Below are positions 1,436-57,232 of a stretch of 58,365 nt of DNA, in pieces (position 1 is the stretch's first letter; each line of letters starts with the position of its first letter). The notes under the pieces were generated by a model that saw only the letters and a list, made by a program, of their open reading frames with translations, was not told the DNA's origin and made no database searches. The stretch lies in contig JAFTXI010000008.1 in NCBI GenBank assembly GCA_017461665.1, positions 1 to 58,365 of the forward strand, read 5' to 3'. The DNA comes from Bacteroidales bacterium. Lineage in GTDB: Bacteria > Bacteroidota > Bacteroidia > Bacteroidales > F082. The position numbers were made by a program, and so were the translations under genes.

Positions 1436-1457
1436 TATATAAAAGGTGTAAATAAAG

Positions 1458-3575: not shown

Positions 3576-3635
3576 ATAAGGAGTAAGAACAGAATAAGAT
3601 TAGAATACAAATAAAAAAATTAACAACAAATTCTT

Positions 3636-5535: not shown

Positions 5536-5537
5536 AG

Positions 5538-41513: not shown

Positions 41514-43367
41514 ATGAAAAAGACATTTATAACATTAGCGATTTTGTTATTTGCGAAAACACTTATGTCGGTTGAATTGCATTGGAAAGCTGCTCCATTG
41601 GAATACGACATGATTATGACAGCAGCTGTTTATATCGATAATGAAGAACAGCAAAATGAGCTGCTTGAATTAGGAGTTTTTTTAGGTGATGTTGTCAAAG
41701 GTAGCGCATTGCCGAAACTTTCTCCTATCACAAATAAATACCTCTATTATATTAATGTGTATAGCGAGGAACTTACAGCATCGATGACATTCAAATTGTA
41801 TAACCACGAGACTGAAGAAGAGATGGTCTTAGATTGCAGTCAAGTGCTTGATTTTGTATCGGAAGAAGACTATGGAGATGACATTATTCCATACATCATC
41901 AATTTCACAACTCCAATTCCAGCTGTCACTTTCATCGGCAACGGTTCATGGAGCGAGACATCAAACTGGAGGGGTTCAGCATTACCAACTGCCGATGATG
42001 ATGTCTTTATAGATGGTGATGCTACTATCACAAACGGCAGCAACATAACAGTAAAATCCTTAGCGATAAACTCAGGCAAATCCCTGACAATAGACAATGG
42101 CGGAATCCTTACTGTGACAGAGACTGTCACCAATACCGATTACGATGCTTTGATAATTAATGAAGGAGGACAGATTGTTCAATCCAATGACAATGTAGCT
42201 GCAACGTTCAAGAAGACAATCGTAGTTCCTTCTAATGTTTGGGGTGAACCTGATAAAACTGGCTGGCAGTTTGTTTCATCGCCAGTAACAAAGTCTGCTA
42301 CAGCAGATTTTATTCCAATAAATGATGACTACGATCTTTACAAGTATGACGGGACACAAGAACTTCAATGGATTAACTATAAAAATAGCGACGATTTTGA
42401 AGAGTCTTTTACGTCGGGAATAGGTTATCTTGTTTCATACCAAACCCAAGCACAAGCTTCTTTTAAAGGAAATTTAAATCCGAATTCTTTTTTTGAATTT
42501 GCAATAGATTCGTATAGCTCAGATAATGTCTTGGCTAATTTTTATCTGTTAGGTAACCCATTCACTTTTGAAATTGACTGGGAATTAGCTGACTATAGAA
42601 GAATAGAAGATGGCTTTGCTACATTGAATTCATCTACTGGTTCTTATATTTATAATGTAGAAGGATTGATAAAGGTTGGTGAAGGCTTCATGGTGTGTAC
42701 CACAAGATCTGGTGCATATTTGGAATATGACAATTCAGCAAAGTCGAGAAGAGAGAAAAATGATTATATCAATATTACAGCTTCAAATGTCGATGGCTCC
42801 GACAATCTCATAATTCGCTTTGACGAAAACGAAGAGGCAGACGGTTTCGTTAAATTAGAAAACTTCAACGATAAGATTGCCAACATTTATGTAAAATCAA
42901 ACGATAACAATTATGCAATCTTTAACTATAATGAAGAAACAACAGAACTTCCTCTTTACTTCGACGCAAAAGAAATGGGAACTTATACATTGAGTTTCGA
43001 TATTAAAGGTAATTACGAAAACCTTTATCTCATCGACAAGATGACAGGAGAGAAAATGAATCTCCTTATAGAAAATGAATATTCTTTTATCGCAAATTCA
43101 AATGATAACCCAGAACGTTTTATCATTAAGATGGACAACAATCAACAGATAACAGACAACAGTCATTTTGCATACGTTTCGGGAGAAGAACTTATCATCA
43201 ATGCTGAAGGTTCAATTCAGATCATAGATATGATGGGAAGAGTGGTTTATTCTAACGATGTGACAAACGACAATAACAGAATTGATGTCAGAGACTTCAA
43301 CAGCGCAGCATATATCATTAGAGTAATAAATGAAAATGGAATTAATGTTCAGAAGATAATATTATAA
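41514..43367 (+). CDS. Secreted T9SS cargo protein of unknown function
   Basis: 617 residues. Signal peptide at about 1-19. An N-terminal beta domain (HWKAAPLEYDMIMTAAVYID) found in many Bacteroidota surface proteins is followed by a G8-like segment (NGSWSETSNWRGSALPTADD, about residues 143-162) and further beta modules. The C-terminal sorting domain (SIQIIDMMGRVVYS, then AAYIIRVINENGINVQKIIL, about 565-617) marks it as T9SS cargo. Operon partner of the cohesin-like gene. No enzyme motif seen. Confidence 0.75.
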   Translation: MKKTFITLAILLFAKTLMSVELHWKAAPLEYDMIMTAAVYIDNEEQQNELLELGVFLGDVVKGSALPKLSPITNKYLYYINVYSEELTASMTFKLYNHETEEEMVLDCSQVLDFVSEEDYGDDIIPYIINFTTPIPAVTFIGNGSWSETSNWRGSALPTADDDVFIDGDATITNGSNITVKSLAINSGKSLTIDNGGILTVTETVTNTDYDALIINEGGQIVQSNDNVAATFKKTIVVPSNVWGEPDKTGWQFVSSPVTKSATADFIPINDDYDLYKYDGTQELQWINYKNSDDFEESFTSGIGYLVSYQTQAQASFKGNLNPNSFFEFAIDSYSSDNVLANFYLLGNPFTFEIDWELADYRRIEDGFATLNSSTGSYIYNVEGLIKVGEGFMVCTTRSGAYLEYDNSAKSRREKNDYINITASNVDGSDNLIIRFDENEEADGFVKLENFNDKIANIYVKSNDNNYAIFNYNEETTELPLYFDAKEMGTYTLSFDIKGNYENLYLIDKMTGEKMNLLIENEYSFIANSNDNPERFIIKMDNNQQITDNSHFAYVSGEELIINAEGSIQIIDMMGRVVYSNDVTNDNNRIDVRDFNSAAYIIRVINENGINVQKIIL

Positions 43368-43368
43368 T

Positions 43369-43483
43369 GACAACAGTCAACAGACTTCGTTTATGGTCGC
43401 TGAGCCTGTCGAAGCGCTGGGCGATAGTGTTATGCCTTCGGCAAGCTCAGGCACCGCATACCTAAGGACTGTTGACCGTTGTC
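43369..43483. repeat. Composite inverted repeat (GACAACAGTCAACAG outside, TGAGC-TGTCGAAG inside)
   Basis: GACAACAGTCAACAG (43369-43383) is mirrored at 14 of 15 positions by 43469-43483. Inside are CGCTGAGCCTGTCGAAGCG (hairpin-forming) and GCCTTCGGCAAGCTCAGGC in opposite sense. The same composite follows the subtilase gene at 48399. Confidence 0.8.
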
Positions 43484-43507
43484 CGTTGACTTTAAAAAAA
43501 ATAGGAA

Positions 43508-43795
43508 ATGAAAAAACTCATAATAACAATAACACTCGCACTTGGACTCGGGATGAGTTTGAATGCACAAAACGACACTTTCTTCACATATAATAATTAT
43601 GATACCGACAGAAGTTCATCATGGGGAACAGAAGCTCCTGGTATTCCTAACGTTCATGGATTAAGTGAAGATTATCAAGTGGTAGAAACCCCTCTTGGCA
43701 GCGGCATCATCTTGCTCGCAGGAATGGCGTTGGGATATGGAATTAAAAGGAGAATTGAAAATGTAGAGACGCGTCAACAACACAATAAGAAATAA
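43508..43795 (+). CDS. Small secreted protein with C-terminal membrane anchor
   Basis: 95 residues. Signal peptide at about 1-21 (MSLNAQ/N), a short polar region, then PLGSGIILLAGMALGYGIKRR (about 60-81): a glycine-rich hydrophobic helix followed by basic residues, like a C-terminal sorting tail. The last ten residues (ETRQQHNKK region) and the stop are encoded by a hairpin repeat that starts at 43763. Function unknown; similar short tails are common near T9SS cargo genes in this phylum, as I recall. Confidence 0.6.
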   Translation: MKKLIITITLALGLGMSLNAQNDTFFTYNNYDTDRSSSWGTEAPGIPNVHGLSEDYQVVETPLGSGIILLAGMALGYGIKRRIENVETRQQHNKK

Positions 43796-43817
43796 AAAAG
43801 AGGTTGTTGACACGTCT
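43763..43817 (-). repeat. GAGACG-type hairpin repeat, CAACAAC class
   Basis: GTAGAGACGCGTCAACAAC on the left pairs with GTTGTTGACACGTCT on the right. The stop codon of the 95-residue protein lies in its loop. Confidence 0.8.
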
Positions 43818-43835
43818 AAAAAATGGAAGATTAAT

Positions 43836-43891
43836 GTAGAGACGTACCAATTACACCGAAAAATATAAACAAGATGTAATTGATGCGTCTC
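43836..43891 (-). repeat. GAGACG-type hairpin repeat, ATTACA class
   Basis: Near-identical to the units at 36806 and 51980; starts GTAGAGACGTACC and ends GATGCGTCTC. Confidence 0.85.
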
Positions 43892-43915
43892 AAGAAAAAA
43901 TGAAATAATGTCAAG

Positions 43916-43998
43916 GAGACGCATCAATGATATGGTTAAATATAGACCTTGTTCTTTGATATAAAGTTTTTCTAACCATATCATTGGTACGTCTCTAC
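43916..43998 (+). repeat. GAGACG-type hairpin repeat, ATGATATGG class
   Basis: Third inner-stem class. The 23-nt left arm from 43916 (GAGACGCATCAATGATATGG and on) pairs with the right arm ending CGTCTC at 22 of 23 positions; the loop is longer (about 35 nt). Unit ends CTAC. A truncated right end follows at about 44002. Confidence 0.85.
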
Positions 43999-44049
43999 CT
44001 TGGACACGTCTAAAAAAATAAAATATAAACCAATTAAAAATAAATAGTC

Positions 44050-47000
44050 ATGAAAAAGAGATTCTTTACATTGATGTTGCTTCTCGTCGGTTCTGTGGCT
44101 GCTTTTGCACAGAGCATGAACAACGACGATGAAGTTGTGAAAATCGACCCGATGAATCGTTTGAACTCGGTGGAAGGCGAGGTGATCGTCAAGTTCGCCG
44201 ACGACACTCCTTTCGAGTTGATGTATGACAGAACCGGCAACTTTAAAGGCACCGGACTTTCTTCGGTGGATAAGTTGTTGAGAAACTATGAGCTCGTCGC
44301 TATCGATAGGCTTTGTCCTAACGATGACCCAAAACGCGAGCTTCGTTCTTCAAAGAGCTACAACGGCGGTGATGTGGTGGAACGCGACCTCAGCCGTCTA
44401 TGCCTTGTGAAGATTAACACTCCTGCCGACAAAGCTGATAATCCGGAATATGACATCCGCGTCCTAACCGACAGACTCATCGAAGAGTTTAACGCTATGG
44501 ACGAGGTGGAGTTTGCAGAACCGAATTATTTCATTTATTCCGTTGGAATAGAAGAGTCACCGAGTCACCGAGTCGCCGAGATGGTGCCTTCGACAAGCTC
44601 AGACACCGCATTGGTCACTGAGCCTGTCGAAGTGACAAGTGATGATAGAGATGGCGGTCATCATCATCATAACCATGACGCTTATCATAAGGAGCCTTTC
44701 TATAAACACCAATGGGGATTGAAGGCTACCAAGATTGACAAGATCTGGGAAGTTGACGAGAATGAAGAAGGCGATCGTATGATTATCGCTGTCTTGGACA
44801 CAGGTGTCGATATTGAACATGCTGACCTCGCCGATAACATCTGGACTAACCCTAACGAGATTGACAACAACTCCGATGATGACGGCAATGGTTATAAAGA
44901 CGACATTCATGGTTATGACTTCGTTAACAAGACTGCCAAGATGGACGACTACAACGGACACGGAACGCACTGCGCCGGTATCATTGCTGCTGTAGGTGAT
45001 AATGGTATTGGTGTCGTAGGTGCAAACCCTAAGACTTATATCATGCCTATCACCGTAATGCAAAGCAACGGAACAGGTTCTATCTCAACTATCATTGAAG
45101 GTATAAGCTATGCCAAGAACAACGGCGCCGATATTATTAGCATGAGTATCGGTACTTACGCCTATTCTATCGCTCTTGAACAGGCTCTCGCTCAGGCTTA
45201 TCAAAGCAGCGTTCTCGTGGCAGCAGCAGGTAACGACGGTTTGAATATTGACGAAACAGCTTTATGTGCTAATCCTTATATTGTGGATATGCCAATGTAT
45301 CCTGCAGCCTTTACTTTCGTTCTTGGTGTACAGGCTACGACAGAAACTGAAGACGGTGGTTATGAGTTGGCTTCTTTCTCCAACTACGACTGCGACGGTC
45401 CTTCATATTCGGGTTATAGCGAAGAGCAACTTTACAATTACGAATTACGAGCTCCAGGTACAGATATAGTAAGTACGGTACAAAACGGTAACTATAAATA
45501 TCTCAACGGAACATCTATGGCTTGTCCTTTGGTAGCTGGTGGTATCTCGGCTCTTCTTCATGCTAAGCCGTATGCCTCACAGGAGATGCTCTGGGGCGAC
45601 CTTATCAATACCTCTGGTGCTAACGTTGACTTCGAGGCTTGCTACAACGCAGGACCTGCTCCGGCTCAACTTCAATTGGTAACTTACGAACTCAATGATG
45701 AGGAAGAAGGCGACGGCGACCTCAGACCTGACGCAGGCGAGACAATGTTGTTCTATCCTACAATACGTACCACATGGGGAGCAGCAGAAGACATCACTTA
45801 CTGGATTGAGTTTGATGAAAACGAAGACAATACAACAATAGAATTTATAGATAACGAAAACATAGACTTCGGACACAATCTCTCTGCATACGCTAAGAGT
45901 AAGGCTGTGAACCCTGTTAAGTTTAAGATAAATGAAAACGTTGTTGACGGACGTTATATCTGCTTGGTATTAAAAGCCACATGCCCTAATGCAGAAGAGG
46001 AGCTTTCATATCCTTTTACTATTAAAGTGGAAAACGGAGTAGAGTTGAAAGGTATCCTCTCAGAAAATACTACTCTCGAACCTAACGTACATTATATAGT
46101 GACAGAGACACTCGGTGTCCCTGAAGGCGTGACACTTACCATTATGCCTGGAACTACCATAAGATTTAAAGACGGTGTTAAACTCGTTAACAAAGGAAAG
46201 ATAATAGCAAAAGGAACCAAAGACAATATGATTACCTTTACCAAAACAGACCTCGGCGTTGGTACATATACAATGCAACTGAACCGTAGCGATACCCTTT
46301 CATATTGTATAATAGAATACGCAACAATTAACAATGATTATTCAGCAGAATATCATTATTGTTATTCTCAGGGAGACGAAGTGTTTGAATATATTAGCGA
46401 TGTCTTGGACAATACTCAAATCAATAATGTAGATGTTAATTATGTGAGAAGAGCTACAATAGACAACAGTATCGTTAGATATTCTTCTTCTAATTCTATG
46501 CCTAATTATACTAATAGTAATTTGTTATACAATTATAATTTATATGTTGGTAGAATGAGTTATTCAGGAACGTATAATGATGCGAATGTTTCTTTCTACA
46601 ATGGTGTAGGTGGTATTTATGAAGCCGGTAACAATATTATAGGTAATTATAATGATTCTTATTATAAAGGTTATATGTTTGGAAATGGTAAATTGAGCTA
46701 TATATTGTTGGGTAATTTATTTAGTAATTATCAAAAGAATGGTGACCATATTGTGTCTTATTATGATGTTGCCAATGAATATACGGATCTCATTACATGT
46801 CCTTTAAATGGTACTTATCTCGGTTCCTCCAATGATGAGATAATTAGCTCTCGTATTTACGATATTGATACTCCAAATTCTACTTCTCTTAATGATATTG
46901 ATGAAAGTACAGCTGAGCGTCGTCCTTCTTCAAAGGCTCATGGCATTGTTTGGAAGGTTCTTGTCAATGGCAAGGATGCTCAGGATGAGTTTGATGAGGT

Positions 47001-48399
47001 GGTGCCTCTTGGTGTGGGAGAACATAAGTTTGAGGTTTATTTCAACCGTGCCATGGATAAGAGCGTAACTCCTATGGTGGCTATGGGCGTGCGTCCTCCT
47101 TATACACAGGTGGCTATAGCCGAAAACGGCAGTTGGAGCGCAGACAGCACAATATACACTGTGTATCTGAATCTCAACGCTTCAACAGTGACAGACGGTC
47201 TCAACCGTATCTATGTCGCTAATGCAAGGGATAACGAGAACTTTGAGATACCTGTAGAGAATATGCGTTTCAACGTTCAAGTCTCAGCTGCTGGATCTAT
47301 GAGCACTGGCTTCGAAGCAACACCTGGTATAGGTAAGGTTGATCTCGCTTGGGAAAACGACTCTACTTATTTCAACGACCACCTTGGCTGGAATATGTAT
47401 CGCTACCAAAAAGATGAGAGAGGTGTCAATACCGATACAATACTTATTAACACAGAGATGATAACAGAAGAAACCAAATTCACCGATTACGACGTTATTT
47501 CTGGTGAACGTTATTACTATTATTACAAGACCTTGCGTACCAACCTCACCGAAAGCGATGCTTCAACAAATGTCTCTACTGTTCCTCTCACTGCACAACC
47601 AGGCGATGCTAACGGTAGTCTCGCTGTTGACGTAGCGGACATCGTGACTATAGTTTCTTATATCACCGGTACTAATCCTCAGCCTTTCGTATTCGGTGCA
47701 GCCGACGTGAATGAAGATGGCGAGATTGACGTTATGGATATTGTAAGCATTGTCAGTATCATCACTACAGGAAAATACGATCCCGACAGATTGCCAAGTG
47801 CGACAGCTACGTATTCTATAGAAGACGGCATCTTATATGTCGATACTCCAGTTGAACTCGCAGGCGTACAGGTGTTCTTGGACTGCGATAGCGACGAATA
47901 CATTGAGGCTCTCAGCGCAATGGACGATTTCGAGCAGGTGGGAATGTTTGTGGAAGACGGTAGATATTTGTTCTTGGCATACAGCATGAGCGGAGCAAAA
48001 CTCAGCGCAGGCAAACACGATATCTTGAAAGTGGGCTATGCCGATGTAGATGAGATGACACTCTCCGACGTTTCGGGAACTAACGTACTCGCTGTAGAAG
48101 AGACTCTGGGTGTTGAAGGCTCTAACAACTATTACGTCATGAACCAGCCATATCCAAACCCATTCAACGGCAGCCTGACGATACCATATTTGGTAGGCGA
48201 CGACAGAGGCGATGTTACATTCACCATTACCAATGTTATGGGACAACAAGTAGTAAAGGTGACATTAGGCACACAAAGCCGTGGCGAATACAGCTACGAA
48301 TGGCAACCCAAATCCGACATGCCAACAGGCATATACCTTATTAATATGTACGTAAACGGAAACATGATTCAAAGAAGTAAAGTGGTTTATATGAAATAG
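44050..48399 (+). CDS. Subtilisin-like (S8) T9SS cargo protease with dockerin-like module
   Basis: 1449 residues. Signal peptide (about 1-21), a propeptide-like region to about 165, a repeat-encoded linker (169-197), then a His-rich patch (GGHHHHNHDAYHK). The S8 domain has Asp250 (VLDTGVD), His304 (NGHGTHCAG) and Ser489 (LNGTSMACPL). After it come a beta domain, a beta-helix-like stretch (about 670-960), a dockerin-like pair of Ca-binding repeats (GDANGSLAVDVADI and DVNEDGEIDVMDI, about 1185-1240), a beta module and a type A sorting domain (PYPNPFNGSLTIPY, then TGIYLINMYVNG). Likely surface protease. About 600 bases in the beta-helix part are unusually AT-rich. Confidence 0.92.
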   Translation: MKKRFFTLMLLLVGSVAAFAQSMNNDDEVVKIDPMNRLNSVEGEVIVKFADDTPFELMYDRTGNFKGTGLSSVDKLLRNYELVAIDRLCPNDDPKRELRSSKSYNGGDVVERDLSRLCLVKINTPADKADNPEYDIRVLTDRLIEEFNAMDEVEFAEPNYFIYSVGIEESPSHRVAEMVPSTSSDTALVTEPVEVTSDDRDGGHHHHNHDAYHKEPFYKHQWGLKATKIDKIWEVDENEEGDRMIIAVLDTGVDIEHADLADNIWTNPNEIDNNSDDDGNGYKDDIHGYDFVNKTAKMDDYNGHGTHCAGIIAAVGDNGIGVVGANPKTYIMPITVMQSNGTGSISTIIEGISYAKNNGADIISMSIGTYAYSIALEQALAQAYQSSVLVAAAGNDGLNIDETALCANPYIVDMPMYPAAFTFVLGVQATTETEDGGYELASFSNYDCDGPSYSGYSEEQLYNYELRAPGTDIVSTVQNGNYKYLNGTSMACPLVAGGISALLHAKPYASQEMLWGDLINTSGANVDFEACYNAGPAPAQLQLVTYELNDEEEGDGDLRPDAGETMLFYPTIRTTWGAAEDITYWIEFDENEDNTTIEFIDNENIDFGHNLSAYAKSKAVNPVKFKINENVVDGRYICLVLKATCPNAEEELSYPFTIKVENGVELKGILSENTTLEPNVHYIVTETLGVPEGVTLTIMPGTTIRFKDGVKLVNKGKIIAKGTKDNMITFTKTDLGVGTYTMQLNRSDTLSYCIIEYATINNDYSAEYHYCYSQGDEVFEYISDVLDNTQINNVDVNYVRRATIDNSIVRYSSSNSMPNYTNSNLLYNYNLYVGRMSYSGTYNDANVSFYNGVGGIYEAGNNIIGNYNDSYYKGYMFGNGKLSYILLGNLFSNYQKNGDHIVSYYDVANEYTDLITCPLNGTYLGSSNDEIISSRIYDIDTPNSTSLNDIDESTAERRPSSKAHGIVWKVLVNGKDAQDEFDEVVPLGVGEHKFEVYFNRAMDKSVTPMVAMGVRPPYTQVAIAENGSWSADSTIYTVYLNLNASTVTDGLNRIYVANARDNENFEIPVENMRFNVQVSAAGSMSTGFEATPGIGKVDLAWENDSTYFNDHLGWNMYRYQKDERGVNTDTILINTEMITEETKFTDYDVISGERYYYYYKTLRTNLTESDASTNVSTVPLTAQPGDANGSLAVDVADIVTIVSYITGTNPQPFVFGAADVNEDGEIDVMDIVSIVSIITTGKYDPDRLPSATATYSIEDGILYVDTPVELAGVQVFLDCDSDEYIEALSAMDDFEQVGMFVEDGRYLFLAYSMSGAKLSAGKHDILKVGYADVDEMTLSDVSGTNVLAVEETLGVEGSNNYYVMNQPYPNPFNGSLTIPYLVGDDRGDVTFTITNVMGQQVVKVTLGTQSRGEYSYEWQPKSDMPTGIYLINMYVNGNMIQRSKVVYMK
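44554..44637. repeat. Repeat-derived insertion inside the subtilase CDS
   Basis: GAGTCACCGAGTCACCGAG (the GACTCGGTGACTC family, reversed), followed by GGTGCCTTCGACAAGCTC and GGTCACTGAGCCTGTCGAAG. In frame it encodes residues 169-197 (ESPSHRVAEM...TEPVEVT). It lies between propeptide and catalytic domain. Confidence 0.8.
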
Positions 48400-48495
48400 A
48401 CAACAGTCAACAGTCTTTGGTCACTGAGCTTGTCGAAGTGACAGTTGCCTTCGACAAGCTGCCTTCGACAAGCTCAGGCACCATTGTCCGTTGAC
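48399..48495. repeat. Composite repeat after the subtilase gene
   Basis: GACAACAGTCAACAG at 48399-48413 (overlapping the last base of the stop codon), then TCACTGAGCTTGTCGAAGTGA, two copies of GCCTTCGACAAGCT and a right end CCATTGTCCGTTGAC. Same plan as 43369-43483. Confidence 0.8.
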
Positions 48496-48510
48496 ATAAA
48501 ATAAGAAAAT

Positions 48511-49119
48511 ATGAAAAAGACTTTTTTAATTTCAATAATCTTTGGCTGTTTAATAGGATTTTCTCAGCCATTGTATTCTCAAGATAATATTGAGAATGGA
48601 CATGAATGGGTTGACCTTGGACTTAGTGTTAAATGGGCTACCTGTAATGTTGGAGCAAAGACACCCGAAGCCGAAGGTAACTACTACGCTTGGGGAGAGA
48701 TAGTACCAAAAGATAATTATTCTATAGAAAACTCTGTCACCTACGAACAGCAGATGGACGATTTTAGCGGCAATGCACAATATGATGCAGCCACAGCCAA
48801 CTGGGGTGGAGACTGGAGAATGCCGACAGAAACAGAGATGAGAGAGTTGGTAAATAGGTGCACTTGGGAATGGACAACGCAGAACGACGTTAAAGGTTAT
48901 AAGGTAACAGGACCTAACGGCAACAGTATTTTTTTGCCTGTTACGGGATATTTTACTGGAACAACCTTTATAAGTGGAACTTGCGGATATAGCAACTATT
49001 GGAGTTCTACGCCGTACAGCAATGACAACGCGTACTACCTCTTCTTCTATAGCAGTAGTCATCGCGTGCTCAGCAACGATCGCAACTACGGCTACGCGGT
49101 GCGCCCCGTCCGAGAATAA
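48511..49119 (+). CDS. DGR target: secreted Fib_succ_major-domain protein with variable C-terminus
   Basis: 202 residues. Signal peptide (about 1-24, cleavage near LYSQ/D). The mature part is a Fibrobacter succinogenes major paralogous domain (GHEWVDLGLSVKWATCNVG, then WGGDWRMPTETEMRELV), expected to adopt the C-type-lectin-like fold used by DGR-diversified proteins. Residues 162-202 are encoded by the variable region and differ from the template at 11 residues (169, 172, 176, 178, 180, 185, 187, 188, 190, 193, 196). There is no sorting domain or clear lipobox. It is probably a binding protein exposed outside the inner membrane; the ligand is unknown. Confidence 0.92.
   Translation: MKKTFLISIIFGCLIGFSQPLYSQDNIENGHEWVDLGLSVKWATCNVGAKTPEAEGNYYAWGEIVPKDNYSIENSVTYEQQMDDFSGNAQYDAATANWGGDWRMPTETEMRELVNRCTWEWTTQNDVKGYKVTGPNGNSIFLPVTGYFTGTTFISGTCGYSNYWSSTPYSNDNAYYLFFYSSSHRVLSNDRNYGYAVRPVRE
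48994..49116 (+). other. DGR variable region (VR)
   Basis: 123 bases aligned without gaps to the template at 50459-50581. 14 differences, every one at a template A: seven A to T, five A to G, two A to C. The other 30 adenines and all 79 non-adenine positions are identical. The last 27 bases, GC-rich and ending CCGTCCGAGAA, are unchanged and are the likely homing-initiation segment. The stop codon of the target follows at once. Confidence 0.97.
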
Positions 49120-49160
49120 AGCGAAGCGCATTCAATTTATTTAATTTATTCGGTTTATTT

Positions 49161-49188
49161 CCGTCGGGCTATTTAAGAAGCCCGACGG
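49161..49188 (+). other. Hairpin downstream of the variable region
   Basis: CCGTCGGGCT (49161-49170) and AGCCCGACGG (49179-49188): perfect 10-bp stem, 8-nt loop, 44 nt after the VR. Hairpins beyond the VR promote homing in the Bordetella phage DGR; this one could do so or act as a terminator. A second hairpin, CCGGC-GAA-GCCGG, follows at 49195-49207. Confidence 0.6.
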
Positions 49189-49221
49189 CTAAATCCGGCG
49201 AAGCCGGCGAAATTTTAAAAA

Positions 49222-49284
49222 TGAAAGTTGAAAATTGAAAATGGAAAATTAGTTCTCAACTTTCAGTTTTCAATTGTCAATTAT
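49222..49284. repeat. Inverted repeat and AT repeat before the MutS-like accessory gene
   Basis: TGAAAGTTGA (49222-49231) pairs with TCAACTTTCA (49256-49265); then TTTTCAATTGTCAATTAT, a motif also found near 26840, 50180 and 52140. Confidence 0.6.
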
Positions 49285-49288
49285 AAAA

Positions 49289-49777
49289 ATGCCAACATAC
49301 ATTGATGCAATAAAATTTGAAGAAGAAGCTCCATCCAACACAATAAGACTTGTTAAGTCGGGAGAGTTCTATAGAGCATACAATCATTCAGCATGGTTGT
49401 TTCAATGTTGTATCACAGAGCACAAAGTGATGCGAAAATATGTCAAGTCTCTGAAAAAGGATATTTATTACATCGGGTTTCCGGAGAAGAGTTTGTTTAA
49501 CAATATTGGAGAGAGAAAATCAACTAAGACAGAATATGGCTTCGATATAGAGTTGAACATAGAAGAAATACCAGATGAAGAAGCATACGAAACATGGAAA
49601 ACAACAATAGTTACAGAACCATCATCAAAAGGAGATTTTAATTCGTTACCATTGGCGGGAATGGAAGCTGAGCGTGAAGTGATAAAACGATTGAGAAATT
49701 TTCCTTTGGAAAATAAAACTATGATAGAATGTACAATCTTTTTATCGGAATTAAGAAAGTTACTTAATAATGTCTGA
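49289..49777 (+). CDS. DGR accessory protein resembling MutS domain I (msl type)
   Basis: 162 residues from ATG 49289 (the frame is open to a TTG at 49274 but ATG fits better). RLVKSGEFYRAYNHSAWLF (about residues 20-38) and YYIGFPEKSLFNNI (about 63-76) resemble the mismatch-recognition domain I of MutS (the xRMGDFYEAF and AGFPYHAL patterns). No clamp or ATPase domain is present. MutS-like (msl) genes are a described DGR accessory class. It lies between the target and avd, in the same direction. Its role in homing is unknown; no signal peptide is seen, so it is cytoplasmic. Confidence 0.65.
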   Translation: MPTYIDAIKFEEEAPSNTIRLVKSGEFYRAYNHSAWLFQCCITEHKVMRKYVKSLKKDIYYIGFPEKSLFNNIGERKSTKTEYGFDIELNIEEIPDEEAYETWKTTIVTEPSSKGDFNSLPLAGMEAEREVIKRLRNFPLENKTMIECTIFLSELRKLLNNV

Positions 49778-49808
49778 GTCACTATGTCGTAAAGTTTGAA
49801 AGTTTAAA

Positions 49809-50165
49809 ATGGCAATATATACTAATCTTCCTATATACAAAGCGTCTTATTCGTTATTGTTGGACATAAACAGAATGATGCCCAATGTTCCACGCGATTG
49901 CCGCTATTCCATTGGGCAAGAACTGCGAAAGAAAATAATGGAAATTATAGTTCTGATATATAGAGCTAACAGGACGAGAGACAAATTGTCTATAATTTCA
50001 AAGATGAGGGAGAGTTTGCTCGAAGTACAGGTGTATATACGTTTGATGAGCGATATGAAGTATATATCAGAAAGAAAATATATTAATCTTGTGGAACAGA
50101 CCACATCCATGTCGAAACAGATGTCGGCTTGGGAGAAGAGTGAACAATTAACAATTAATAGTTAA
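49809..50165 (+). CDS. avd: DGR accessory variability determinant (Avd-like)
   Basis: 118 residues, all helical in pattern, basic, and fitting the four-helix-bundle Avd/S23-like family (PIYKASYSLLLDINRMM, then RDCRYSIGQELRKKIMEII, about residues 8-45; EVQVYIRLMSDMKYIS, about 73-88). In known DGRs Avd forms a pentamer that binds the reverse transcriptase and template RNA. The C-terminal QLTINS and the stop come from a short AT repeat. It is 146 nt upstream of the RT ORF. Confidence 0.88.
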   Translation: MAIYTNLPIYKASYSLLLDINRMMPNVPRDCRYSIGQELRKKIMEIIVLIYRANRTRDKLSIISKMRESLLEVQVYIRLMSDMKYISERKYINLVEQTTSMSKQMSAWEKSEQLTINS

Positions 50166-50311
50166 CAATTGTAAATTATACATTGTCAATTGTTAATTAT
50201 AAAGTGGCGGACCAAAGATATAAATGATTTAGCTGGAATGTCAATGGTTAAGGCTGTTGACAGTGTGCAAAGTAAATTCAATGTAAAAAGAAGGTGATCT
50301 GACCGTGTTAT
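50146..50311 (+). other. avd-RT intergenic region, probable 5' part of the template RNA
   Basis: Begins with AT repeats (CAATTAACAATTAATAG, then CATTGTCAATTGTTAATT). The remainder is less AT-rich and holds only a 19-codon ORF (MSMVKAVDSVQ...). By position it would be the leader of the template RNA. No two-box promoter was found. Confidence 0.4.
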
Positions 50312-51757
50312 ATGGTAAATAAGAAAAAGTCGGCGAGTAAATTACATGAGAATAAAGAATGTTCTTTATCGCTTTTCAGTATAGATGATTACCCCGAAAG
50401 TGTTCCTGCTGCGGGCTATCGCAATGGGTCATCGCTCAATAATGCTGGTAGCAACGGTAACTATTGGAGTTCTACGCCGAACAGCAATAACAACGCGTAC
50501 AACCTCAACTTCAATAGCAGTAGTCATAACGTGAACAACAACAATCGCAACAACGGCTACACGGTGCGCCCCGTCCGAGAACTTACAAAAGAATCGTTAT
50601 CAGTAAATAAAGTCCGTCACTTTTCTATTACGAAAGAACAGTTATTGTTGGATCTTTATAGAGCATATAAAGATGCAAGAAAGAATAAAAGTAATAAGAA
50701 CTATCAACTGAAATTTGAATATAATCTTGAAGACAATCTTGTTAAATTAAGAGATGAACTTATAGATGGAGTATATAAACCTTTGCCATCAGATTGTTTC
50801 ATAATTCATGAGCCTAAGATGCGAGAAGTATTTGCAGCTAATTTTCGTGATAGAATAGTTCATCATCTCTTCTACAATTACACTCATGAAATATTTGAGA
50901 AGACATTTATCTATGATTCTTACAGCTGTATTAAAAACAAAGGAACACATTTTGGAATCAAAAGACTACGGCATCACATTCTGAGTGTGTCGAAAGGATA
51001 TTCAAAACCATGTTTTATCTTAAAGATAGATATTAAAGGTTATTTCATGAATATCAATAGAGGAAAATTATTAGAAATATGCAGAAATACTATTTCAAAA
51101 ACGAAAAATATCAATCTAATAGATTGTCAATTTGTTGATTATCTTTTAGAGACGATTGTAAGGTATAATCCCTTGGAAGATTGTAACGTATTAGGAGAAA
51201 CTATAGATTGGTGTAATTTGCCTGAGGAGAAGAGCCTTTTTTATACGAAAGATAATTGTGGATTGCCTATAGGAAACTTGTCGTCGCAATTATTCAGTAA
51301 TGTATATTTAAATGTTTTTGATCAATATGTAAAGAGAGAGTTAAAATGTCGTCATTATGGACGATATGTCGATGATGCATACATAGTGTCGAACAACAGA
51401 GAATATCTGAAAAGTATCATTCCAAAGATTAGTGTCTTTTTGAAAGAAAACTTGTATCTTGAGATACATCCACATAAAACAAGGATATATAATGCATATC
51501 ATGGCATTGAATATCTTGGTGCATTTCATAAGCCATTTCGTACATATATATCCACTTCATCATTAGAGAGAATAGTCAAGAAGATTAAAACATTAGAATT
51601 GACAGATAATAGTAAGGTGCAGAATAAAATGAATTCTTTTTTAGGCTTGTTGTCACATTATGATAGCTATTGTATCAGAAGAGTCGTATTTGGTAATAAT
51701 GCAAGATTGAATAAAATAGGCTATTTCGACAATATGTTTTTGAGATATATGATTTGA
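50312..51757 (+). CDS. DGR reverse transcriptase, with template region fused in frame
   Basis: 481-codon ORF. The polymerase proper runs from about residue 105 (SITKEQLLLDLYRAYKDAR) to the end: motif A FILKIDIKGYF with Asp240, the DGR-typical GLPIGNLSSQ (317-326) and catalytic YVDD (352-355) with the pattern of group II-related DGR enzymes. Residues 1-90 look like the end of a Fib_succ_major protein and contain the template (codons 50-90). No ATG exists between the template and the conserved start of the enzyme, only TTG codons near 50648. So either the fused form is made or a non-ATG start is used. The enzyme copies the template RNA with adenine-specific errors. Confidence 0.93.
   Translation: MVNKKKSASKLHENKECSLSLFSIDDYPESVPAAGYRNGSSLNNAGSNGNYWSSTPNSNNNAYNLNFNSSSHNVNNNNRNNGYTVRPVRELTKESLSVNKVRHFSITKEQLLLDLYRAYKDARKNKSNKNYQLKFEYNLEDNLVKLRDELIDGVYKPLPSDCFIIHEPKMREVFAANFRDRIVHHLFYNYTHEIFEKTFIYDSYSCIKNKGTHFGIKRLRHHILSVSKGYSKPCFILKIDIKGYFMNINRGKLLEICRNTISKTKNINLIDCQFVDYLLETIVRYNPLEDCNVLGETIDWCNLPEEKSLFYTKDNCGLPIGNLSSQLFSNVYLNVFDQYVKRELKCRHYGRYVDDAYIVSNNREYLKSIIPKISVFLKENLYLEIHPHKTRIYNAYHGIEYLGAFHKPFRTYISTSSLERIVKKIKTLELTDNSKVQNKMNSFLGLLSHYDSYCIRRVVFGNNARLNKIGYFDNMFLRYMI
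50459..50581 (+). other. DGR template region (TR)
   Basis: 123 bases, 44 of them adenine, with 15 AAC/AAT codons in the frame shared with the target. It lies 1465 bp downstream of the VR in the same orientation, within the RT ORF (codons 50-90). No single or multiple adenine substitution can give a stop codon in this frame. Confidence 0.97.
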
Positions 51758-51830
51758 GTCGTGCCAAGATTCGTCAGGGGAATATCGTGGCGTTATACTC
51801 AATCGGTTTTTATTTAATTAAAATGTTTTA

Positions 51831-51869
51831 TTTCCGCATGGTATAAAATGCCGTGCGGAAATTTTTTTT
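51831..51869 (+). terminator. Intrinsic terminator of the DGR
   Basis: TTTCCGCATGG pairs with CCGTGCGGAAA (11 bp with one T.G) around a short AT loop, followed by eight T. It lies 73 nt after the RT stop. Confidence 0.85.
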
Positions 51870-51879
51870 AGATTGTTTT

Positions 51880-51964
51880 GAGATGCATCAATGATATGGT
51901 TAAAATTTTATTTCCGTTTTTTTAATACAAGGATTATCGAACCATATCATTGGTACGTCTCTAC
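51880..51964 (+). repeat. GAGACG-type hairpin repeat, ATGATATGG class
   Basis: GAGATGCATCAATGATATGG on the left and CCATATCATTGGTACGTCTC on the right, about 40-nt loop, ending CTAC. Closely matches the unit at 43916. Confidence 0.85.
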
Positions 51965-51979
51965 CTGGAGGCGTTTTGT

Positions 51980-52035
51980 GTAGAGACGTACCAATTACAC
52001 CGAAAAATATAAAAGATATGTAATTGATGCGTCTC
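51980..52035 (-). repeat. GAGACG-type hairpin repeat, ATTACA class
   Basis: GTAGAGACGTACC to GATGCGTCTC, almost identical to 43836-43891. A lone right arm (ATGTAATTGATGCGTCCC, 52057-52074) follows. Confidence 0.85.
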
Positions 52036-52102
52036 AAAATGGTTAAAAATAAATAATATGTAATTGATGCGTCCCAATTTAATTAGGAATTGTGAGATGA
52101 TA

Positions 52103-52130
52103 CAAAAAAAAGGACGCATTACCGCGTCCC
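52103..52130 (-). terminator. Intrinsic terminator of the rnf operon
   Basis: On the minus strand GGACGC pairs with GCGTCC (52124-52129 and 52112-52117) around a 6-nt loop, followed by eight T. It lies 26 bp after the rnfA stop. Confidence 0.85.
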
Positions 52131-52155
52131 TTAATTTTCAATTTTCAGTTTTCAA

Positions 52156-52728
52156 TTATACTAATCCAGCGAATCCCATGAATGCCAAGGCGAGGATACC
52201 TGCTGTCACCAATGCGATTGGCACGCCTTTCATTCCATTAGGTATGTCGGCGAGTGCAAGTTGTTCGCGGATACCGGCGAAGATGACCAAAGCTACTGTG
52301 AAACCGCAGCCGTTAGCCATGGCGTACATAGCGCCTTCCAACAAACCGAAGTCTTTTTGTATCACCAAGATCGCCACACCGAGAACGCAGCAGTTGGTGG
52401 TGATGAGTGGCAAGAACACGCCGAGTGCTGCATATAAAGCTGGACTTATCTTCTTTAAGATAATCTCAACCATCTGTACCAAAGCTGCGATGACCAGGAT
52501 GAAAGCGATGGTCTGTAAAAATCCTAAGTTGAATGGATTCAACAGATAGTGCTGGATGAGCCATGTCACTATCGTTGCCAAAGTTATGACGAAGATAACA
52601 GCGGCACCCATTCCCAATGAGGTGGATATCTTCTTAGATACACCGAGGAAAGGACATATACCGAGGAACTGTGTCAACACTATATTGTTGACGAATATTG
52701 CCGAGATAAATATAAGTAAGTATTCCAT
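52156..52728 (-). CDS. rnfA: Electron transport complex subunit RnfA
   Basis: 190-residue inner-membrane subunit with six predicted helices. ISAIFVNNIVLTQFLGICPF (about residues 8-27) carries the conserved cysteine of the RnfA/NqrE family that helps hold the membrane-embedded iron-sulfur centre with RnfE. Last gene of the operon (order B-C-D-G-E-A), followed by a terminator. NqrE is the paralogue; the RnfB gene upstream settles Rnf. Confidence 0.95.
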   Translation of the reverse strand: MEYLLIFISAIFVNNIVLTQFLGICPFLGVSKKISTSLGMGAAVIFVITLATIVTWLIQHYLLNPFNLGFLQTIAFILVIAALVQMVEIILKKISPALYAALGVFLPLITTNCCVLGVAILVIQKDFGLLEGAMYAMANGCGFTVALVIFAGIREQLALADIPNGMKGVPIALVTAGILALAFMGFAGLV

Positions 52729-52754
52729 GTCTAATATCTTTAATTGTCAATAAC

Positions 52755-53342
52755 TTAATTTGATTTTTTCAATATTTTGTTCATGATTGAGATGAGGAAT
52801 CCCAAGGCGATGAAGGCTCCTGGAGCGAGGACGAATACCAAGATGGTATCGCCTTCGATGAACTTCCATCCAAAGATAGAACCGCTACCCAAGATCTCAC
52901 GGATAGAACCTAAGATGGTGAGTGCCATGGCATAACCTAAACCCATACTGATGCCGTCGACTGCTGAAGCACCGATGCTGTTCTTGCAAGCGTAGGCTTC
53001 TGCACGTCCTAAGACGATACAGTTAACAACGATGAGAGGAATGAACAAACCTAATGTCTCGTAAATGCTTGGTACGTATGCCTGCATCAAAAGTTGTAAT
53101 ACTGTCACGAAAGAAGCAATCACAACGATATAGCAAGGGATGTGTACTTTATTAGGGATGAAGTTCTTCAGCAATGAGATGGAGATGTTGGATAAGACCA
53201 AGACGAATGTTGTTGCCAAACCCATCGAGAGTCCGTTGATGGCGCTTGTTGTGGTTGCCAATGTAGGACAGCAGCCGAGAAGAAGTACCAAGATAGGATT
53301 TTCTCTGAAGAATCCTTTTGTTAAATTATTCCAGTTAGCCAT
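52755..53342 (-). CDS. rnfE: Electron transport complex subunit RnfE
   Basis: 195-residue membrane subunit, partner of RnfA. NPILVLLLGCCPTLATTTSA (about residues 15-34) holds the conserved cysteine, and IVVNCIVLGRAEAYACKNS is the matching inverted half. Six helices expected. It starts 2 nt after rnfG ends. Confidence 0.95.
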   Translation of the reverse strand: MANWNNLTKGFFRENPILVLLLGCCPTLATTTSAINGLSMGLATTFVLVLSNISISLLKNFIPNKVHIPCYIVVIASFVTVLQLLMQAYVPSIYETLGLFIPLIVVNCIVLGRAEAYACKNSIGASAVDGISMGLGYAMALTILGSIREILGSGSIFGWKFIEGDTILVFVLAPGAFIALGFLISIMNKILKKSN

Positions 53343-53344
53343 GA

Positions 53345-53926
53345 TTAAAATCCTCCTTTGTTGTTTTCAAATGTTAATAAAGCGCGATTTACTGCATCGC
53401 AGAAAGCTCTTGAGCTGATGGTAGCTGCTGTGATGGCATCGACATCGCCGCCGTCTTTCTTCACGTTGAAGTTAAACGACTTGGCGTTTTTGTCGTTGAA
53501 CTGATCCTTGAAAGAAGGTTCCGACATCTTAGAACCTAAGCCAGGTGTCTCTGCGTGTTGCAATACGGAGATGTTCTTTACTGTTCCATCGGCGAGGATA
53601 CCCACCATCAAGGAGATGTTACCGCTGAAGCCTTTGTTTGTGAATGTCTCTATAGCTGCACCGATGAAGTTGTTGTTGGCATCGTAGGCGAGATAGAAAG
53701 GAAGATCTGCGTCTTCATTTTCAACTGCCGATTTAACATTGATATTGTTAAGTGTTTCAAATTCAGGAAGGACGTTTTTGATAGCCTCTGTCTTCTTGGC
53801 TGTCTCGGCTGCTGCGATAGGTTCTTTTGTTGCATTATATACAACGCCCAATACGCCGCCGGACACCACGCTAATCACGAACATGGCTATAAACATATTT
53901 AATAATGTATCTTTCTTTGCTGCCAT
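53345..53926 (-). CDS. rnfG: Electron transport complex subunit RnfG
   Basis: 193-residue subunit with one N-terminal transmembrane helix (about 9-31) and a periplasmic FMN-binding domain. The covalent flavin site is the AITAATISSRAF segment (about residues 168-179), with Thr as the expected attachment residue; the usual SGAT is TAAT here. HAETPGLGSKMSEPSFKDQF is also typical. It follows rnfD by 4 nt. Confidence 0.94.
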   Translation of the reverse strand: MAAKKDTLLNMFIAMFVISVVSGGVLGVVYNATKEPIAAAETAKKTEAIKNVLPEFETLNNINVKSAVENEDADLPFYLAYDANNNFIGAAIETFTNKGFSGNISLMVGILADGTVKNISVLQHAETPGLGSKMSEPSFKDQFNDKNAKSFNFNVKKDGGDVDAITAATISSRAFCDAVNRALLTFENNKGGF

Positions 53927-53930
53927 AACT

Positions 53931-54917
53931 TTATTTTTTTACAGTGTTACCGAAACGTTTTGGTTTACATACTTTGTTAATCAATGGAACGAAGGCATTC
54001 ATGATTAAGATGGCGAACGACATGCCTTCTGGGTAAGCACCCCAGAGACGTATGATGATTGTCAACGCGCCAATGCCGATAGCGAAGATTATCTTACCGC
54101 TCATAGTCATTGGTGATGTCGCCATGTCTGTTGCCATGAAGAATGCTCCGAGCATCAAGCCGCCACCGAAGATGTGAATCATAGGGTTGACGAATTGAAC
54201 AGGATCGATGAGCCAGCATACCGTCGAGATGATCGCTACAGTAGCGATGATGATGACAGGTGTTTGCCAGTCGATGACTTTTCTTATTATCAAGAAGATA
54301 CCTCCGATGATGATGGCGATAGAACCTATCTCACCAAGCGAGCCGCTGTAGATAAGAGGGTTGATGATTTCTTCTGCTGTCAACTCGTTGGCTGCTATGC
54401 CTTGAGCGAGACCTTCTTTGATATGACCGAGTAATGTTGGTCCTGTGACAGCGTCGGTGAGAGCTTCGCCGAATATAGGTTGTGGTGTTGGCCATGTAGT
54501 CATCGCGACAGGGAAGGAGATGAGCATGAAGACGCGTCCTACCAATGCAGGGTTGAATGGGTTGTTACCCAAACCGCCGAACGACATCTTGCCAATACCT
54601 ATTGCTACGATGGCACCTACTATAATCATCCATGCAGGGATGTTGGAAGGAAGGTTGAATGCCAACAACATACCAGTCACTATAGCTGAACCGTCGCTGA
54701 TGGTGTTCTGTCCTTTGACGAGATATTTCTGAATCAACCATTCAACTAAGACACATGCCGCTACCGATATCAATGTGACGCGGACTGCATCGAAGCCGAA
54801 ATAATATATTGAGAATAAGAATGCTGGCATCATTGCTATGATGACGCTGTACATTATTTTCTTTGTGCTCTCATTTCCATGAACATGAGGAGAACCTGAT
54901 ATTATGTAATTATTCAT
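53931..54917 (-). CDS. rnfD: Electron transport complex subunit RnfD
   Basis: 328-residue membrane subunit of the RnfD/NqrB family with about nine helices. SPHVHGNESTKKIMYSVIIA at the start and GKMSFGGLGNNPFNPALVGR (about residues 109-128) are conserved; the covalent flavin threonine is expected in FMATDMATSPMT (about 261-272). It follows rnfC by 8 nt. Confidence 0.95.
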   Translation of the reverse strand: MNNYIISGSPHVHGNESTKKIMYSVIIAMMPAFLFSIYYFGFDAVRVTLISVAACVLVEWLIQKYLVKGQNTISDGSAIVTGMLLAFNLPSNIPAWMIIVGAIVAIGIGKMSFGGLGNNPFNPALVGRVFMLISFPVAMTTWPTPQPIFGEALTDAVTGPTLLGHIKEGLAQGIAANELTAEEIINPLIYSGSLGEIGSIAIIIGGIFLIIRKVIDWQTPVIIIATVAIISTVCWLIDPVQFVNPMIHIFGGGLMLGAFFMATDMATSPMTMSGKIIFAIGIGALTIIIRLWGAYPEGMSFAILIMNAFVPLINKVCKPKRFGNTVKK

Positions 54918-54925
54918 CTCTTTAC

Positions 54926-56275
54926 TTATTTCTGATTACGTGAACGAATTATTTGTCCTGTTTTGTTTTTGCCGTAACGGATGTAGTCTAACAAAGGAAT
55001 ATTTGCTGGACATGTGAACTCGCATGAGCCGCATTCGATACAATCCATGATGTTGCTTGCCTCTGTATCCTCGAAGAGGTTATTCTTAGCTTGGCGGCTG
55101 AGGAGGTAAGGCTCGAGTCCCATAGGGCAGGCGTTGATGCATTTGCCGCAGCGTAAGCAGTTGCCGACTTGGCGTGGCTGTGCTTCTTTGTCGGTCATGA
55201 CCAAGATGCCTGATGTTCCTTTGATGACAGGGAAGTCGCTGATGGAAACAGATTTCCCCATCATAGGACCGCCGTTGATGATATTGGTGATGTTTTCTGG
55301 TAATCCGCCTGCTGCTTCGATGAGTTCCATCGATGAGGTGCCAAATCTTACCAAGAAGTTAGATGGTTTCTTGACGGATTTGCCTGTCACAGTGACGACT
55401 CTTGAGATGAGCGGTTTGTTCTTCTGTACGGCTTCATAGATGGCATACGTTGAAGCGACGTTGACAACGACGCAGCCTGTCTCGATAGGGAGTTTGCCTG
55501 AAGGCACTTCTCTTCCGGTGCAGGCCTTGATGAGTTGTTTCTCACCACCTTGAGGATATTTCGTCTGTAATGGTTGAACCTCAATACCTGAGAAATAGCT
55601 GTCGCCCTTGATGATATTATCCAATAATTCTGCTGCCTTGATTTTATTTACTTCAATACCTATGATTGCCTTTGGGGCATCTACGGCTTTCATCACCACC
55701 TTGACACCTACTAAGAACTCGTTAGGTTTTTCAAGAAGGAGACGGTTGTCGCAGGTGAGGTAAGGCTCGCATTCAGCAGCGTTGATGATGACGAACTCGG
55801 CTTTCTTGTCTTTAGGTATAGAGAGTTTTACGTTTGTTGGGAATGTTGCTCCACCCATACCGACGATGCCGTGGTTCTTCACTCTGTCTATTATTTCTTC
55901 GCGAGATAATGTGATGTCTTTTATTAAGGTGTCACTGGTGTCGATGTCTTCCAACCATTCGTCGCCTTCAACATCGATGAAGATGGCTGGCTTGCGATAG
56001 CCTGTGTGATCCATCACCTCATCGACTTTGGTGACTTTGCCGCTCACTGAGGAGTGGACGTTGGCAGAGATGAAGCCTCTCGCGGTTCCGATGAGCTGAC
56101 CTACTTTCACTTCATCGCCTTTTTTCACTATAGCTTCGGCTGGGGCGCCGAGACATTGTCCTAATGGAATGATGGCTTGTTTTGGTATTGGAAATGTTAT
56201 TATAGGTTGTTCTGACGAAAGTTTGTTTTCTTCAGGATGAACACCGCCTTTGGGGAATGTTTTCTTTGGATTCAT
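54926..56275 (-). CDS. rnfC: Electron transport complex subunit RnfC
   Basis: 449-residue peripheral subunit that receives or gives electrons at NAD(H). The N-terminal region has the barrel-sandwich and SLBB-like domains with GMGGATFPTNVKL (about residues 138-150) of the NADH/FMN site. Two 4Fe-4S motifs lie near the end: CLRCGKCINACPMG (about 377-390) and CIECGSCEFTCPANIP (about 416-431). It lacks the long alanine-rich tail of the enterobacterial form. It follows rnfB by 4 nt. Confidence 0.96.
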   Translation of the reverse strand: MNPKKTFPKGGVHPEENKLSSEQPIITFPIPKQAIIPLGQCLGAPAEAIVKKGDEVKVGQLIGTARGFISANVHSSVSGKVTKVDEVMDHTGYRKPAIFIDVEGDEWLEDIDTSDTLIKDITLSREEIIDRVKNHGIVGMGGATFPTNVKLSIPKDKKAEFVIINAAECEPYLTCDNRLLLEKPNEFLVGVKVVMKAVDAPKAIIGIEVNKIKAAELLDNIIKGDSYFSGIEVQPLQTKYPQGGEKQLIKACTGREVPSGKLPIETGCVVVNVASTYAIYEAVQKNKPLISRVVTVTGKSVKKPSNFLVRFGTSSMELIEAAGGLPENITNIINGGPMMGKSVSISDFPVIKGTSGILVMTDKEAQPRQVGNCLRCGKCINACPMGLEPYLLSRQAKNNLFEDTEASNIMDCIECGSCEFTCPANIPLLDYIRYGKNKTGQIIRSRNQK

Positions 56276-56279
56276 ACGC

Positions 56280-57152
56280 TTATTCTTTACTTTCGTTAAT
56301 AGATTCTTTTACTTCAACTTTTGGCTTGTGTGGAGGGAAGTTGACTGCTAAGATGCTGCCTCTTGGACAAACATCGACGCACTTGCGGCATTGCTTGCAC
56401 TTGTTCGGATCGATGTAGGCTAAATTGCCACGCATCTCGATAGCTTCGAATGGACATTCTTTGAGACACTTCTGACATCCGATGCAACCAACCTTGCAGT
56501 TCTTCATGGTGATGGCACCTTTCTCGATGTTCACGCAGCTGACATAAACACGACGGTTGTTCTTGCCTTTAGGACGAATCTCGATGATGCCTCTCGGACA
56601 TGCTTTGCTACATGCACCGCAACCGACACATTTTTCTTCATCGACGGTAGGAAGTCCTGTCACTTCATCGACATAGATGGCGTCGAAAGCACATTTCTTG
56701 ACGCAGTCGCCGAGACCGAGACATCCGTTGGGACAGCCGTTGCTTCCGGCGTACAGGGTGTGTGCAAATGCGCAGATGTCGGCACCTTCGTATTGGACTT
56801 TCTTAGGCGCGTTCTCGCATGTGCCGTTACAACGTACGACGGCAATCTTAGGTTCTGCTGCTGTGACTGTTAATCCAAGGACAGCTGCTACTTTCGACAT
56901 GTCGGAACTTGTGCAGTTTAAACCGTCGATATTGCCTTTGTCGGCAGCCGACTTGACGCATGCCTCTGCGAATGCTCTACATCCGGCAAAACCGCAACCA
57001 CCGCAGTTGGCTCCGGAGAGATTAGCTTCAACTTCATCAATCAATGGATTTTCTTCTACTTTAAACTTCTGAGCGACTATGTAAAGAATAACCGCTAAAA
57101 CACCTCCCAAGACTCCAAGTACAATGAGAGAATAGAGTAAAATTTCGTTCAC
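56280..57152 (-). CDS. rnfB: Electron transport complex subunit RnfB
   Basis: 290-residue ferredoxin-type subunit. One N-terminal transmembrane helix (about residues 5-26), a 4Fe-4S domain (GANCGGCGFAGCRAFAEAC, about 48-66), then several CxxCxxCxxxC clusters: CVGCGACSKACPRG (about 175-188), a further pair around CIGCQKCLKECPF (about 224-236), and CKQCRKCVDVCPRG near the end. Links ferredoxin to the membrane complex. Starts with GTG; no closer ATG. The complex couples ferredoxin:NAD exchange to ion pumping. Confidence 0.95.
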   Translation of the reverse strand: MNEILLYSLIVLGVLGGVLAVILYIVAQKFKVEENPLIDEVEANLSGANCGGCGFAGCRAFAEACVKSAADKGNIDGLNCTSSDMSKVAAVLGLTVTAAEPKIAVVRCNGTCENAPKKVQYEGADICAFAHTLYAGSNGCPNGCLGLGDCVKKCAFDAIYVDEVTGLPTVDEEKCVGCGACSKACPRGIIEIRPKGKNNRRVYVSCVNIEKGAITMKNCKVGCIGCQKCLKECPFEAIEMRGNLAYIDPNKCKQCRKCVDVCPRGSILAVNFPPHKPKVEVKESINESKE

Positions 57153-57232
57153 AATAATATATTTTAATGTTTAATAAAATTAATCTTTACTGCACAAAAA
57201 TAATAATAAATTTTCTTTGTTCGTAAAAAAAA

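Follow-up and report, generated by a model that had tools for sequence, protein, structure and literature searches.

A 58,365-nucleotide (nt) stretch of DNA from a gut-type Bacteroidales bacterium (here called the window) carries a complete diversity-generating retroelement (DGR), very probably a chromosomal one that worked until recently, if not to the present day. Bacteria, archaea, and phages use DGRs for targeted hypermutation. The window is contig JAFTXI010000008.1 (C58) of assembly GCA_017461665.1 (G000), a 2.49-Mb genome in 60 contigs that is 94% complete. The DGR fills a ~3.4-kb block at 48511 to 51869, with all parts on the + strand: a target gene with the variable repeat (VR), the accessory genes MSL and avd, an open reading frame (ORF) that holds both the template repeat (TR) and the reverse transcriptase (RT), and then a terminator (Table 1). 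An earlier reading made without database searches (the sequence-only reading) had proposed a complete DGR in one block and one orientation, closed by a strong terminator. This proposal was borne out: the parts lie together on one strand, a terminator with a T-run follows the RT, and adenine-only TR/VR mismatches, target, MSL, Avd, and RT were all found. As a whole, the DGR is ordinary in kind, with its template embedded in the RT ORF.

The repeats and proteins of the DGR

A repeat search run without an adenine rule returned the VR and the TR core as a direct repeat of 123 nt with 89% identity. The two copies differ at 14 positions (7 A>T, 5 A>G, and 2 A>C), and all 14 fall on the 44 adenines of the TR, an outcome with a chance probability of 1.2e-7. 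Ten of the changes are at codon position 1 and four at position 2. In the genome assembly, the window TR has no further target besides this VR; at 94% completeness, however, the assembly could lack one. A 70% match on contig C39 was rejected as an additional target, with only 21 of its 40 mismatches at TR adenines; it fits the TR of a second DGR of this genome (DGR2, described below) instead, with 28/28.

By homology to the TR of DGR2, the TR begins near 50405. Its first 54 nt differ from the target at 38 positions, 29 of them not at adenines, and so have no VR counterpart. This 5′ part is still resembled by the third lectin-like domain of the target at the sister-species locus L020 (below) and by the VRs of DGR2, suggesting that the window target probably lost the matching region or was exchanged within a YWSS motif.

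The proteins agree with the families that the sequence-only reading had named. The target, described there as secreted, has a signal-peptide-like N terminus and, as expected of a member of this class, a C-type-lectin-like domain. A profile sequence search of PDB gave no match to it at E≤0.01, and Foldseek gave none at E≤0.001; the lectin assignment rests on structure comparison with VIA-align and on Pfam. MSL, called MutS domain I-like, scores 18.6 bits against the Pfam MutS_I cut-off of 20.6; its AlphaFold model (pLDDT, 72) yields a Foldseek list headed by MutS chains (best E value, 0.065; none ≤0.001). MSL is a known DGR accessory, Pfam PF01624 (PMC10053308). The Avd-like protein passes the Pfam bAvd cut-off, scores 54.1 bits with NCBIfam DivGenRetAVD, below its cut-off of 80, and gave no match at E≤0.01 in a sequence search of PDB. 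The RT matches RVT_1 at 65 bits. Among solved RTs, phmmer ranks PDB chain 8ub7 as the most similar in sequence; we take this chain to be the RT of Bordetella phage BPP-1. The GLPIGNLSSQ and YVDD motifs seen earlier are in place, giving both the catalytic DD and the SQ motif that marks DGR RTs (PMC3521204).

Table 1. Features of the Bacteroidales DGR in window coordinates
Feature	Position	Strand	Basis
Target gene, 202 aa, signal-peptide-like N terminus, C-type-lectin-like Lcl_C/FISUMP domain	48511..49119	+	Lcl_C above Pfam cut-off
VR, 123 nt	48994..49116	+	Repeat search
Candidate initiation of mutagenic homing (IMH) site, 20 nt identical in VR and TR	49097..49116 (TR copy, 50562..50581)	+	VR/TR comparison
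GC-rich hairpin, 10-bp stem, 8-nt loop, 44 nt 3′ of VR	49161..49188	+	0/1000 shuffles as good
MSL accessory gene, MutS domain I-like, 162 aa	49289..49777	+	MutS_I E=0.0023, below cut-off
avd, 118 aa	49809..50165	+	Pfam bAvd, 42.7 bits (cut-off, 40)
Divergent RT-7 RNA (RF03028)	50232..50394	+	36.6 bits, E=4.8e-7 (gathering, 116.8)
RT-7 parts: 5′ hairpin; closing helix; leader hairpin	50240..50261; 50292..50299 with 50387..50393; ~50332..50372	+	Five-relative consensus fold
ORF with leader, TR, and RT; 481 aa from ATG 50312	50312..51757	+	Open reading frame
TR by homology to TR of DGR2, 177 nt; VR counterpart only for 50459..50581	50405..50581	+	Homology
TR core, 123 nt, 44 adenines	50459..50581	+	Repeat search
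Link from TR to RT motif; open frame, no ATG/GTG/TTG, possible RNA signal (spacer equivalent)	50582..50641	+	
RT core from LLLDL	50642..51757	+	RVT_1; GLPIGNLSSQ 51260..51289, YVDD 51365..51376
Intrinsic terminator, then T-run	51830..51862	+	5 terminator-like sites in region vs 1.8 expected

The window DGR shares with that of BPP-1 (Mtd, Avd, TR, and bRT) the order target-avd-TR-RT, the adenine-specific differences, a C-type-lectin-like target, and Avd. By analogy with that phage, the RT with Avd, perhaps aided by MSL, would reverse-transcribe the TR RNA and make errors at its adenines. The resulting cDNA would then take the place of the VR, held by the 20-nt identity at the 3′ end and, probably, by the hairpin behind the VR; the outcome would be variation of a secreted C-type-lectin-like binding protein. 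The window DGR differs from that of BPP-1 in having MSL and an RT-7-like RNA upstream and in being chromosomal, while its post-VR hairpin is like the phage one in its stem and unlike it in loop and distance (PMC3240598). The phage type has a GC-rich stem of 7 to 10 bp and a 4-nt GRNA loop and lies 4 to 34 bp after the VR (PMC3240598). A nearly identical hairpin follows VR2 of L020 and the VRs of L029 (DGR2) and L021.

Evidence that the DGR has worked

By RT identity, the nearest relatives are in Bacteroidales metagenome-assembled genomes: L020 (roe deer colon; 93%), L021 (71%), and L022 (roe deer cecum; 64%). L021, L022, and DGR2 are Bacteroidales DGRs with Avd and MSL that share the gene order, an RT-7-like RNA, and an in-frame TR with the window; they differ from it in RT (64 to 72% identity) and in target and TR sequence. 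Relative to L020, the RT core has a ratio of nonsynonymous to synonymous divergence (dN/dS) of 0.14; the values are 0.07 in the first 111 codons of Avd and 0.04 in MSL, with 0.32 in the link and 0.29 in the part of the target 5′ of the VR. RT, Avd, and MSL are thus under purifying selection.

The two TRs differ at seven gap-free non-A core columns, and at every one of them the window VR has the base of the window TR and L020 VR2 that of the L020 TR (14/14 states); likewise, a 6-nt insertion in the L020 TR is present in both L020 VRs. Since each VR follows its own TR at every informative column, copying took place after the window and L020 split, and the claim of the sequence-only reading that the VR has diverged from the TR in a system that worked in this lineage holds up. 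The past transfer from TR to VR is thus inferred from the concert of the two repeats. L020 VR2 has one non-A mismatch within the repeat. When the alignment is widened to take in the 5′ part of the TR (14 columns each), 23 states match the own TR and 5 the other for VR1, with 22 and 6 for VR2. The L020 TR is itself without the 5′ part. The L020 target (1408 to 3690) is a 760-aa protein with three lectin-like domains, two of which carry VRs of one TR.

Some observations weigh against a working DGR. The VR spans 123 of the ~177 nt of the TR, and the post-VR hairpin departs from the phage-type consensus (which comes from phage-related DGRs) with its 8-nt loop and its distance of 44 nt. It could be that the cassette is a fossil, with old TR/VR differences and no remaining function, as the single VR found for the window TR, with 14 of 44 adenines changed, and the unmatched first 54 nt of the TR would allow. 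Against this stand the purifying selection on RT, Avd, and MSL, the seven of seven TR changes carried into VRs since the split from L020, and the intact motifs and open frames, which together make a fossil very unlikely.

The template within the RT frame and its candidate RNA signals

The window TR lies wholly within the RT ORF, as in DiGReF structural group 3, whose TRs extend over the 5′ end of the RT ORF (PMC3521204). This layout is therefore a known one. In the description of that group, the overlap is only named, and the TR and RT RNAs are held to be most likely transcribed separately (PMC3521204). The present analysis covered frame, start codons, RNA structure, and constraint on the link. 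PMC3521204 was also the only paper found on TR overlap with a DGR RT, in a search that left most subscription papers out and is no proof that the layout is otherwise unpublished.

In this lineage, the TR occupies the open frame of the RT itself, downstream of an RT-7-like RNA, so that a single transcript probably supplies both the template RNA and the 5′ portion of the RT message. We tentatively propose that the RT is translated through its own template, with one RNA as message and template: the RT-7-like fold would sequester the start codon, the flanking signals would have moved into the coding sequence, and the terminator behind the TR would have gone. The same RNA might either be translated into an RT with a template-encoded, asparagine-rich N-terminal extension or be folded for reverse transcription, and such switching would couple the RT level to mutagenesis. 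One stretch of DNA appears to encode protein, to be the template for mutation, and to carry flanking RNA signals, so that it can be tested directly how the template RNA is kept separate from the RT message.

Among 37 loci scanned (one place was counted twice, L012 being L069, and a 51-nt match in L072 was set aside), 25 have a credible TR/VR pair; the finder takes adenine mismatches only and can therefore miss pairs. Of these 25, 12 have the TR entirely within the open frame of the RT, 2 have it partly within, and 11 have it outside. On a tree of 35 RTs, the in-frame label is clustered (7/500 shuffles as low), and the five-row clade of the window is in frame throughout (5/5). A single origin finds no support, with seven changes needed and at least four of them forced by starred branches.

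The ATG 5′ of the TR is kept in all five of the closest loci (window, L020, L021, L022, and L029) and is their only in-frame start codon at a common place. In each, the leader is open solely in the RT frame, versus 3 to 9% of dinucleotide shuffles that are open, and the frame runs unbroken through leader, TR, and link. The window has no start codon between the TR and the RT motif LLLDL; its sole TTG (50645) falls inside the motif. The shared ATG, the open leader, and the unbroken frame speak against a plausible, if less than probable, alternative, in which descent from coding sequence is the sole reason that the RT frame stays open across the TR. The RT would then start within or after the TR, at GTG 50531 or 50564, TTG 50645, or an unusual start, and carry no full template-encoded extension. 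Such a late start draws support from the GTG codons inside the TR and from the position of ATG 50312 in a predicted RNA helix, for which it may be kept as RNA. Also in its favor, 7 of the 12 in-frame loci have, as scanned, an ATG, GTG, or TTG between TR and RT motif (the RT motif of L070 was not located); the other five, the window, L022, L024, L025, and L029, have none there. In L016 and L070, ATGs 3′ of the TR would allow an RT made without it.

The conserved element 5′ of the ORF matches Rfam RF03028, the RT-7 RNA, reportedly first described by Weinberg et al. in 2017. The cmscan alignment shares the 5′ hairpin, the GUAAAUUC core, and the helix order; the window element differs in a 3′ half that is shorter and overlaps the ORF and in a closing helix of other sequence. 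The match stands in a whole-genome search (E=4.7e-7), which returned two matches at E≤1, both at DGRs of this genome. RT-7 was found at E<0.01 in 10 of 17 related loci. Under stricter filters, six matches at E≤1e-5 were obtained in 4 of 149 genomes of the order, each of the six flanked by avd or MSL on one side and a related RT on the other (for the three of G081 and G101, no search for TR/VR pairs was made). In L067, L024, L056, L060, and G115, the end of the match is ≤7 nt from the TR start as located; it precedes that start by ~11 nt in the window and in L022, by 12 nt in L029, and by more in L027, L021, and L020. The fold stops close to the TR start and might define the cDNA 5′ end or bring in the RT complex. 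An Rfam motif is tied to the 5′ flank of DGR templates and offers a handle on where reverse transcription stops. No paper on RT-7 RNA or RF03028 was found in the same kind of search, again no proof that the link is unpublished.

On the other hand, the score of 36.6 bits is far below the gathering score. No match at the gathering cut-off was obtained in the window (43000 to 55000) or in 10 further loci, and none of the 10 related loci with E<0.01 reaches that score. RT-7 was not found at E≤0.5 in 6 of the 17 loci (L016, L057, L023, L025, L055, and L033) and is weak in L069 (E=0.26), while 2 of 14 control genomes have a match at E≤1, in surroundings that were not looked at. The overall stability of the window RNA is not above that of shuffles (z, −0.76; 42/200 as good) and was dropped as evidence; that of the DGR2 RNA is higher (z, −2.09; 4/200).

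A consensus fold of five relatives has 39 pairs with 94.8% of cells paired. Four pairs are changed on both sides (18/500 shuffles have as many), and the covariation score was reached by 6/500; the fold was derived from the alignment on which it was scored, with only five related rows. One of its helices pairs ATG 50312, and this start codon within a helix kept in five relatives would also suit a cis-regulator of RT translation outside the template RNA. We consider this rather unlikely, because the RT-7 match abuts the TR even at loci whose TR does not share the RT frame, for example, in L060 (RT-7, 1177 to 1305; TR from 1306) and L067 (RT-7, 5398 to 5614; TR from 5613).

In BPP-1, a structured spacer 3′ of the TR recruits the RT-Avd complex (PMC12875486); unlike BPP-1, which has this spacer between TR and brt, the window has its TR inside the RT open frame (PMC12875486). 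By analogy, the link would play the part of the spacer. In six pairs pooled without L020, the first 20 codons 3′ of the TR have 10/62 synonymous differences, versus 0.39 to 0.66 in other 20-codon windows; taken pair by pair, the constraint has p<0.05 in 5 of 10 pairs, which share branches. These data only suggest that the 60 nt after the TR are constrained as RNA. The closest pair, window and L020, points the other way, with 3/14 differences in the link versus 38/343 and no sign of constraint.

A terminator-like hairpin 3′ of the TR was found in 6 of 11 loci whose TR is not wholly in frame and in none of 12 in-frame loci. This count covers 23 of the 25 loci, L018 and L028 being left out because their TR is behind the RT. 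In L060, L056, L059, L064, L069, and L015, the hairpin comes immediately after the TR, which would suit a template RNA transcribed on its own.

Other DGRs and surroundings of the cassette

DGR2 (L029; contig C31, 3162 to 6461) has the same gene order as the window DGR, an RT of 72% identity, and an in-frame TR. Its local VR (179 nt) has 29 changes at 65 adenines, in a target that is lipoprotein-like by eye. A remote VR of 187 nt on contig C39 (134385 to 134571; L030, 3386 to 3572), 85% identical in a search without the adenine rule, has 28 of 28 mismatches at adenines and ends an 810-aa open frame. DGR2 is thereby a further example of a DGR that has both a nearby and a remote target within its genome. 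A third DGR-like RT is on contig C44 (L031, ~56480 to 57550), with an asparagine-rich, TR-like stretch in frame by eye; no VR for it was found in the assembly.

Both the window and L020 cassettes are preceded by the end of the same subtilase gene of the type IX secretion system (T9SS) type, and the sequence 3′ of the RT differs. In the window, this gene (44050 to 48399, just 5′ of the cassette) encodes a large subtilase with a dockerin-like part and a type IX secretion tail. Synonymous divergence from L020 is 0.74 at the subtilase end and only 0.21 in the RT core, a hint of recombination.

A recent phage origin was rejected. A viral_contigs pattern scan, which reaches close relatives only, found no relative, and the matched records were all below 60% identity (phages, 108/108; plasmids, 323/323). 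The DGR may have come from a phage in the distant past.

Among related loci, L032, L033, L055, and L057 have MSL and no Avd by tblastn; MSL may stand in for Avd there. The RT open frames of L033 and L054 are only 337 and 322 aa long and are possibly broken copies.

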